This document shows, in pieces, positions 15,857 to 25,472 of a stretch of 32,508 nt of DNA; the first letter of the stretch is position 1, and the number at the start of each line of letters is the position of its first letter. Source of the stretch: Bryobacterales bacterium (GTDB lineage: Bacteria; Acidobacteriota; Terriglobia; Bryobacterales; Bryobacteraceae). The position numbers and the translations under genes were made by a program. The DNA lies in NCBI GenBank assembly GCA_003136675.1, contig PLFE01000169.1, positions 11,346 to 43,853 of the forward strand, written 5' to 3'. Under the pieces are notes generated by a model. It worked only from the letters and a program-made list of their open reading frames with translations, did not search any database and was not told where the DNA came from.

Positions 15857-15867
15857 CAAGTAAAAAC

Positions 15868-15893
15868 GAGCAATAAAAAAGAGCAATAAAAAA
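15868..15893. repeat. Tandem 13-bp repeat, two copies
   Basis: GAGCAATAAAAAA occurs twice head to tail at 15868-15880 and 15881-15893, just after the methyltransferase stop codon. The A-run of the second copy is the U-tract of the minus-strand terminator that follows, so the duplication may have doubled that tract. Confidence 0.8.
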
Positions 15894-15921
15894 GCCGGCT
15901 CGCCCCTCACGACGAACCGGC
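15888..15921 (-). terminator. Left-facing intrinsic terminator
   Basis: On the minus strand GCCGGTTCG / CGAGCCGGC forms a 9-bp stem (one G-U pair), followed by TTTTTT (15893-15888). Read on the plus strand the same stem has a C-A mismatch and no T-run, so it acts on leftward transcription. No gene on the minus strand ends nearby. Confidence 0.7.
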
Positions 15922-15978
15922 CGTACTACCCTCGTTCTCTCTTGTGCTTTGAGATTAGCTGTTGCCCGGTACGCCGGC

Positions 15979-16043
15979 AATCAGGCGAAATCCTGATTTC
16001 GCAGGGGTAAGACGCCGTAATCAAACGTCAGACTTTCCTGACG
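15979..16043. other. Cluster of perfect hairpins with mutually exclusive pairing
   Basis: AATCAGG-CGAAAT-CCTGATT (15979-15998) overlaps an alternative stem GCGAAAT-CCTG-ATTTCGC (15985-16002); both cannot form at once. A third hairpin CGTCAG-ACTTTC-CTGACG lies at 16026-16043. They sit between two left-facing terminators, in a region without a gene. This could be a regulatory RNA with two states or a cluster of protein-binding palindromes. It does not match any riboswitch consensus that I know. Confidence 0.5.
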
Positions 16044-16073
16044 GTACTAGGGTGCACAGCCCGCCGACAAACG

Positions 16074-16102
16074 AAAAAGCCCCCGTTTGGCGAGGGCTTT
16101 CG
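16074..16102 (-). terminator. Second left-facing intrinsic terminator
   Basis: On the minus strand AAAGCCC / GGGCTTT flanks an 11-nt core and continues into TTTTT (16078-16074). On the plus strand the stem is followed by CGTGC, with no T-run. With the terminator at 15888-15921 it brackets about 150 nt of structured sequence. Confidence 0.6.
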
Positions 16103-16134
16103 TGCAATCTGAAGCAGAGAGGAGGTGTTGCTGT

Positions 16135-16422
16135 ATGACACTTCGCTTGAAGATTGTGTGGCTACGCTACACGGTCGAGATCGTCTTCCGCCTAAAAAGG
16201 AAGGTAATCTTGGGATTGGGATGCTACCAACATCCCAATCCCTTCACGCATCATAGCGCGGATTACATCACTCCAAAGTTCTTCAGATTCCTCGGGAGAA
16301 ACGAGTTCACCGTAGCACCCGAACGCGGCCGTCGATCCCGCCGGCCCCCAAAGCCTTGTGCGACGCGTGGCGCCGCGGGCTGCGTGCGGCACTGGGCGTC
16401 GGAGATTTGGCGGGGCGGATGA
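16135..16422 (+). CDS. Possible small ORF with strong ribosome-binding site
   Basis: The ATG at 16135 is preceded by AGGAGGT with 8 nt spacing, the best ribosome-binding site in this region. The first 24 codons encode a basic, hydrophobic peptide (MTLRLKIVWLRYTVEIVFRL, then KRK), plausible for a membrane-active or leader peptide. The frame then runs through a 12-bp perfect hairpin (16212-16242) and into arginine- and proline-rich sequence that does not look coding; the 95-codon length is probably not real. It may be a degraded gene, a leader peptide, or a type I toxin-like peptide. No family is recognised. Confidence 0.3.
   Translation: MTLRLKIVWLRYTVEIVFRLKRKVILGLGCYQHPNPFTHHSADYITPKFFRFLGRNEFTVAPERGRRSRRPPKPCATRGAAGCVRHWASEIWRGG
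16212..16242. other. Perfect 12-bp hairpin
   Basis: GGGATTGGGATG (16212-16223), a 7-nt loop CTACCAA and CATCCCAATCCC (16231-16242). It is the second longest perfect stem in the window. Only TT follows on the plus strand and AA on the minus, so it is not a standard intrinsic terminator. It lies inside the small ORF that starts at 16135. Confidence 0.7.
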
Positions 16423-24931: not shown

Positions 24932-25472
24932 CGCGCTGCTCGCGTTCATAGCCCAGAATACTCACCGTGGCCGTGCTTAACGCGAACAGCCGTCCCGCGT
25001 TTGGCGGCAGCGCCAGCCAGCAGGCCGCCAGAATGCGCAGAATGTGCCCGTGCGCGAAAAGGGCAACATCACCCGTCGCTTGCATGGCCCGGTCGATCAC
25101 TTTGGCCGCCCGCGCATACACCTGCTCCACCGTCTCGCCGTTTGGAACGCCGTCCTTCCACAACTCCCACCCAGGCCGCACCTCGCGAATCTGCGGCGTG
25201 GACTTCCCTTCGTAGTCCCCATAATTCCATTCCGAGAGGTTCGCGTCCACCTGCGCCCCGTCCGCATAGCCCGCAATGCTGCAGGTCTCCCTGGCCCGTT
25301 GCATGGGACTCGTGAGTACCAGCGCGAACTGCTTTCCGGCCAGCATTTTGCCCAGAAGCGCCGCGCGCCGCTCGCCTTCCGCCGTCAGCGGCAGGTCGGT
25401 CGTGCCCGTGTGGGCCCCCGATAAGCTCCACGCCGTCTCGCCGTGCCGGATTAACCATAATTCATTGGGCAT
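24882..25472 (-). CDS. Histidine phosphatase family protein
   Basis: 196 residues of the phosphoglycerate-mutase-like fold. The catalytic motif is LIRHGETAW with phospho-acceptor His10 and Arg9, followed by LTSPMQRARET (Arg59), Glu81 in LSEWNYGDYEGK and LFAHGHILR with His141. The lack of the mutase insert suggests a broad phosphatase (CobC or SixA-like) rather than glycolytic mutase. The start at 25472 has TATGCT six bases upstream and no Shine-Dalgarno. Its 3' end overlaps the AhpD-like gene on the other strand. It is divergent from the DUF2076 gene. Confidence 0.92.
   Translation of the reverse strand: MPNELWLIRHGETAWSLSGAHTGTTDLPLTAEGERRAALLGKMLAGKQFALVLTSPMQRARETCSIAGYADGAQVDANLSEWNYGDYEGKSTPQIREVRPGWELWKDGVPNGETVEQVYARAAKVIDRAMQATGDVALFAHGHILRILAACWLALPPNAGRLFALSTATVSILGYEREQRVISRWNLPPSGGPATV

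Follow-up and report, generated by a model that had tools for sequence, protein, structure and literature searches.

The window, by which we mean the whole 32,508-nucleotide stretch of DNA analysed here, contains what is probably a degenerate copy, with an intact antisense gene, of a dispersed Bryobacterales family built like a type I toxin–antitoxin module. By its anatomy, the element is a candidate type I locus with putative transcripts and a putative toxin. The argument is carried by computed observations: a dispersed family, coding selection on its peptide frame, covariation in its leader, −10 boxes on the antisense strand, the polarity of its terminator and the decay of the window copy. 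The features referred to below are located in the window as follows.

15893–15922, minus strand: second leftward intrinsic terminator (fold z −4.41 against shuffles), facing the 3′ end of a methyltransferase gene
15979–16002, no strand: two mutually exclusive, perfect 7-bp hairpins, single copy and not conserved
16017–16137, plus strand: leader covariance-model match, 45.8 bits with model R2 (window not in training) and 43.6 bits with model R3 (window in training)
16074–16102, minus strand: right-hand intrinsic terminator (hairpin 16101–16075; fold z −3.84 against shuffles)
16120–16127, plus strand: Shine–Dalgarno site AGGAGGTG, read from the sequence
16135–16422, plus strand: toxin-like reading frame, the first 22 codons of which, MTLRLKIVWLRYTVEIVFRLKR, are homologous to the paralogues
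16212–16242, minus strand: hairpin at the 5′ end of the predicted antisense RNA (plus-strand sequence GGGATTGGGATG..CATCCCAATCCC), conserved in position, with a different sequence in other genera
16073–16244, minus strand: predicted antitoxin-like antisense RNA of about 172 nt, from its promoter, 5′ hairpin and terminator
16250–16255, minus strand: predicted −10 box TATGAT of the antisense promoter, from the TANNNT count

Intact copies consist of a leader with covarying hairpins and a Shine–Dalgarno site, followed by the gene for a hydrophobic, positively charged peptide of about 20–29 codons. From this layout we infer how transcription, pairing, membrane insertion and toxicity would be linked. 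A minus-strand antisense RNA would cover the tiny plus-strand gene for the cationic hydrophobic peptide and would pair with the peptide mRNA over its ribosome-binding site and coding region, leading to a block of translation or to decay of that mRNA. The mRNA leader would itself fold in such a way that its own Shine–Dalgarno site can be hidden. Were the level of the antisense RNA to drop, the peptide would be made and would insert into the membrane. In the window copy, unrelated DNA would have replaced the leader and sense promoter and the stop codon would be gone, leaving the antisense gene intact.

A DNA search of the window's own genome with 15860–16260 gave nine matches, the window included; all except the window's own are limited to the part to the right of about 16069. 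The own-genome copies have in common the right-hand terminator hairpin, the Shine–Dalgarno site, the short reading frame and the 3′ hairpin, and the ninth copy, L050, is a remnant in the same genome with the left (5′) half only. The leader that the other copies carry to the left of the terminator includes a strongly conserved hairpin, GAAGCACTTGAGCTTC, which the window copy lacks.

Covariance models extended the family beyond this genome. A model built on the own-genome copies (R1) matched 3 of 200 family genomes, its own included, and with a leader model built on 11 sequences (R2) there were matches in 22 of 237 family genomes, representing 14 of 76 genera. A second-round model (R3), trained on 79 matches and reported at E up to 0.001 (E-values are rough, the calibration having been shortened), gave 122 matches in 35 of the 237 genomes of Bryobacterales/Solibacteraceae (Acidobacteriota) and 16 of the 76 genera; the remaining 202 family genomes had no match at its threshold. 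Across the class, 26 of 399 genomes were matched. Loci L143, L146, L147 and L148, from family genomes but not in training, carry a whole or nearly whole module and provide an out-of-sample check, and L144, also not in training and from another family of the class, has the full module. Ten R3 matches fell outside the family; one (G113) contains the whole module, and the other nine look like chance. A pattern scan of named genomes found relatives in Solibacteraceae bacterium SbA4, Bryobacterales GL140_5 and Bryobacterales bog_159; its matches L043, L045 and L046 and the viral contig L049 were set aside as chance. None of the three models matched the sister species G001 (71% complete), and copy L002, used as a DNA query against 151 genomes, returned own copies only.

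SbA4 has tandem arrays, one at L083 (G049:C615), with leaders at 25462, 25832 and 26192 (spacing about 360–370 nt), and another at L085 (G049:C679). At L085:3168–3356, an additional inverted repeat, rich in G+C and several tens of nucleotides long, is inserted in the conserved leader hairpin, and the downstream peptide frame is intact. Tandem copies occur in some type I families.

For counts over copies, one of the 79 R2 matches was dropped as cut by a contig end, leaving 78. The −10 box count used 70 of these, eight being without an 18–34-codon frame or 100 nt downstream, and the stop-distance count, which needs at least 120 nt downstream, used 76, two lying near contig ends. Copies from the same genome are kin, and such counts are therefore not independent.

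The peptide frame is under purifying selection. In seven groups comprising 48 frames, dN/dS was 0.33, 0.17, 0.40, 0.51, 0.38, 0.20 and 0.42 (range 0.17–0.51). Column-permuted pN/pS was about 1 and six of the seven groups fell below all 300 permutations; for the remaining group, the 26-aa frames of G063, which was not beyond all permutations, the permutation fraction was 0.073. Read from the start codon at the end of the model, the frame is 18–30 codons long in 64 of 76 copies, compared with 0 and 32 of 76 for the other two frames; as the start codon belongs to the covariance model, the stop distance alone is independent evidence. At least five bases of the Shine–Dalgarno consensus are kept in 48 of 70 copies.

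The peptides diverge strongly between genera, as seen when the first 22 codons of the window frame given above are set beside MLTLWLKIVTLVVTIRFKLTIRKGR (SbA4), MILLLVGLLLLGRVTVTITWTRKGRR (bog_159), MDLLMLFVFLMLLLIRKRRTKLKIEIDL (G222) and MSVLILIVLLIVIRNRQIRLKIEIDL (G009). After removal by hand of nine broken or wrong-frame peptides, the 61 kept are 18–29 aa in length (median 26) and hydrophobic on the whole (median GRAVY 0.87), and every one has a positive net charge (+1 to +7, median +5). Together with the coding selection, these computed properties are those by which a type I toxin is defined, namely fewer than 60 aa, hydrophobic, cationic and encoded by a real gene. Pfam and PADLOC had no family for ten peptides, NCBIfam gave just sub-cutoff anchor-domain matches for one of the ten, and the PDB gave no match up to E 10 for two. 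A peptide search in 101 genomes found the own genome only, probably because the peptides diverge too fast. In one subfamily (L107:390–496, L107:781–886, L111:391–505 and L144), the same leader precedes a different type of peptide, IPxGYRIxV...DGxxEVxLEP, which is not obviously transmembrane or membrane-active; this subfamily might have another function or target.

The same anatomy would suit any antisense-controlled small protein, and some of the peptides resemble β-strands rather than a transmembrane helix, so that the product could be a non-toxic membrane peptide with an antisense regulator, acting in signalling or stress. We consider this unlikely, given that the copies are multiple, tandem, rapidly diverging and often broken, which is commoner in type I toxins than in housekeeping small proteins.

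The leader covaries. In an alignment of 79 sequences fitted to the model structure (A6), 91.4% of the cells of leader pairs are standard pairs, and 16 of 20 pairs have two-sided changes, with 209 two-sided cells compared with 75 in shuffles. The four helices include one formed between the Shine–Dalgarno region and the strand 3′ of the G+C hairpin; this helix is 84.8% paired and has two-sided changes in all five of its pairs. In the own-genome copies, the same strand can alternatively close the outer stem of the leader. It is plausible from these alternative pairings that the leader acts as a switch in which the Shine–Dalgarno site is either hidden or open. In a loose sense, the two-state leader suggested in the earlier note would hold for the element's plus strand, where the covarying leader can pair with the Shine–Dalgarno region, but most of that leader is missing from the window copy itself. 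The sense promoter is weakly visible (mean best score 6.87 versus 6.29, sd 0.21). A GAAGC-ACTTGA-GCTTC hairpin in the leader (for example, L031:1434–1545) is conserved in sequence beyond the needs of its stem in several genomes; the predicted antisense RNA ends before it, so its loop may have a partner of its own.

An antisense RNA with its own promoter is predicted from two properties, a −10 box and the polarity of the terminator. Within a −10 box, TANNNT is the best-conserved part. Of 70 copies, 65 carry it on the antisense strand at a distance of 2–14 nt beyond the 3′ hairpin, whereas 1,000 rounds of shuffling gave a mean of 14.8 and never more than 28; at the same place on the sense strand, it is present in 24 of 70. 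Five-of-six matches to TATAAT number 43 on the antisense strand and 12 on the sense strand. All but one of 21 genomes (20) contain one or more copies with the antisense TANNNT. The inner three bases of the box vary (TATAAT, TATGAT, TACAAT, TATACT, TAGAAT and TAATTT), a variation that a promoter would be expected to show and mere inheritance would not. No clear or consistent −35 element was seen, and a sigma-70 scan found no promoter in this region of the window. The hairpin at the 3′ end of the peptide gene, which would form the 5′ hairpin of the antisense RNA, has a median fold z of −2.26 over 70 copies.

The G+C hairpin of the leader would be the terminator of the predicted antisense RNA; read on the plus strand, it forms part of the peptide leader. 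A four-A run 5′ of it, corresponding to the antisense U-tract, is found in 50 of 78 copies, and a four-T run on its sense side in none of the 78. Taken together, −10 box and terminator polarity would give an antisense RNA of about 170–190 nt that covers the peptide frame and the Shine–Dalgarno site and ends inside the leader; in the window, the predicted RNA overlaps the whole conserved part of the frame and the Shine–Dalgarno site. The right-hand terminator thus seems to be the predicted end of the antisense RNA, not the start of a new unit. That no minus-strand gene ends here, as had been stated, is probably wrong, as an RNA from the promoter at about 16250–16255 is predicted to end at 16074.

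The window copy has decayed, with loss of the leader and of the toxin stop codon, whereas the antisense gene is intact. The model match at 16017–16137 is recognisably homologous from about 16069 rightward; the 5′ stem and the conserved leader hairpin are missing, and there is no visible sense promoter (score 0). Without its TAG stop, the frame continues to 95 aa. An FG-GAP repeat fragment (PF13517; 16358–16753, plus strand), which may be a gene remnant, overlaps the end of this run-on frame. The antisense half is 83–91% identical to the matching stretch of seven paralogues, with a 47-nt perfect run shared with L002; among these seven, L002, L004 and L006 retain both a standard start codon and an intact frame. 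The window copy may serve as an orphan antitoxin acting in trans, or it may simply be decaying.

The earlier note had drawn attention to the DNA between the two leftward terminators, proposing that it holds, in leftward orientation, either a small RNA gene of about 180 nt with a terminator of its own or a two-state leader. Several of its observations were borne out. Both minus-strand intrinsic terminators are found (16101–16075 and 15922–15893, with the z-scores given above), and after neither hairpin is there a T-run on the plus strand. The second is strong, has a direct repeat, GAGCAATAAAAAA, at 15870–15894 that forms a doubled U-tract behind it, and faces a gene with the Pfam domain Methyltransf_11; it probably acts as a fail-safe against leftward read-through transcripts. 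The mutually exclusive hairpins are present exactly as described (AATCAGG 15979–15985 with CCTGATT 15992–15998, versus GCGAAAT 15985–15991 with ATTTCGC 15996–16002), and no comparable pair arose when the block was dinucleotide-shuffled 3,000 times, while 2 of 444 overlapping blocks of the window hold one, making the pair locally unusual.

The block as a whole, described as structured, is no more so than chance: the fold z of 15923–16068 is −0.70 on the minus strand and −0.79 on the plus strand, the level of shuffles, and most of the z of −3.3 obtained over all 215 nt is due to the two terminators. A DNA search found the block in single copy in its own genome, and a search with 15870–16080 in 151 genomes found no relatives except a 22-mer, overlapping 15979–16002, in one distant genome (G112). 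We read this 22-mer as chance, as it lies within a gene-like stretch there and a 21-base part of it was not found in viral contigs. The sigma-70 scan matched no promoter in the block, and Rfam gave no match at gathering in the window, with only weak, sub-threshold matches that lie outside the block. An RNA of about 180 nt between the terminators, lacking conservation, a promoter match and excess structure, is very improbable, and we reject it on the first and last of these. Conservation in relatives, proposed as a check, fails for 15923–16068 and holds for the part to the right of 16069. A small RNA ending in a terminator of its own does seem to lie on the minus strand, but to the right of the block, from about 16244 to 16074. 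The block is unrelated DNA that lies where the leader and sense promoter of the window copy should be.

A leader peptide with an attenuator for the next gene, which the short frame with hairpins before and after it might suggest, is scarcely credible: the main downstream long frame lies on the opposite strand in 20 of the 31 copies with enough flank (same strand in 11), and the element is therefore not the leader of a following gene; moreover, the leader hairpin is followed by no sense U-tract in any of 78 copies. Equally far-fetched is a purely non-coding mobile repeat (MITE or REP-like), its hairpins being DNA or transposition features; the scattering of copies through a single genome and their several inverted repeats would fit such a repeat, but it is rejected by the synonymous-biased divergence in the frame and by the conservation of start, stop distance and Shine–Dalgarno site across genera.

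None of the loci and peptides searched matched a described family in Rfam, Pfam, PADLOC, NCBIfam or the PDB at the cut-offs used. Rfam gave no match up to E 1 in eight own-genome loci, and at gathering neither a riboswitch nor any other Rfam family was matched; a plasmid search also gave no match. According to a 2025 paper, type I systems had been known only from Proteobacteria, Firmicutes and Tenericutes, with Cyanobacteria providing the first candidate beyond these, and this narrow range is thought to reflect search bias (PMC12390103). A literature search limited to non-subscription papers returned no report of type I toxin–antitoxin systems for Acidobacteria; work on Solibacter toxin–antitoxin systems included none on type I by title, and work on small proteins and toxin–antitoxin systems in Acidobacteria none by title or start of abstract.

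The search-bias explanation would gain direct support from a family that covaries, has selected frames and occurs in 35 of the 237 genomes of a single acidobacterial family, and a covariance model from the element can be used for wider searching. In addition, genomes with multiple copies, some broken and possibly antitoxin-only, make the life cycle of such a module testable, from spread through toxin loss to orphan antitoxin. It is possible, although we hold it to be doubtful, that the element is an unrecognised type I family, the first in Acidobacteriota and widespread in Bryobacterales, of which the window copy is a toxin-dead orphan antitoxin that silences the mRNAs of its paralogues in trans and frees the genome from addiction.

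Among known systems, msoT1/msoA1 of Microcystis aeruginosa is also an in-silico type I candidate outside Proteobacteria, Firmicutes and Tenericutes; it comes from one genome, with assays in E. coli (PMC12390103), whereas the present element is a family predicted from sequence across 16 genera. The ibs/Sib and shoB/OhsC systems of E. coli, with hydrophobic toxins of 19 and 26 residues repressed by antisense small RNAs, resemble its predicted arrangement of a small hydrophobic peptide under an antisense RNA (PMC8309996). They differ in that Pfam, NCBIfam and Rfam revealed no sequence relation, and the peptides of the element are strongly basic, whereas IbsC and ShoB, according to the same review, have no positively charged C-terminal residues (PMC8309996). 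In aapA/IsoA of Epsilonproteobacteria, a short cationic membrane peptide, a cis antisense RNA, a Shine–Dalgarno-hiding leader and several paralogous loci come together (PMC6733600, PMC8309996). The element shares the cationic peptide, the antisense RNA and Shine–Dalgarno-hiding leader (both predicted here) and the paralogous loci, and many of its peptides also end in basic residues. It differs in belonging to another phylum, in having no Rfam relation that could be found and in the conserved ACTTGA-loop hairpin of its leader, and the 5′–3′ long-distance interaction of aapA/IsoA is not evident in it. The metastable, Shine–Dalgarno-sequestering hairpins of aapA3 resemble the hidden/open switch that the leader of the element may form (PMC6733600).
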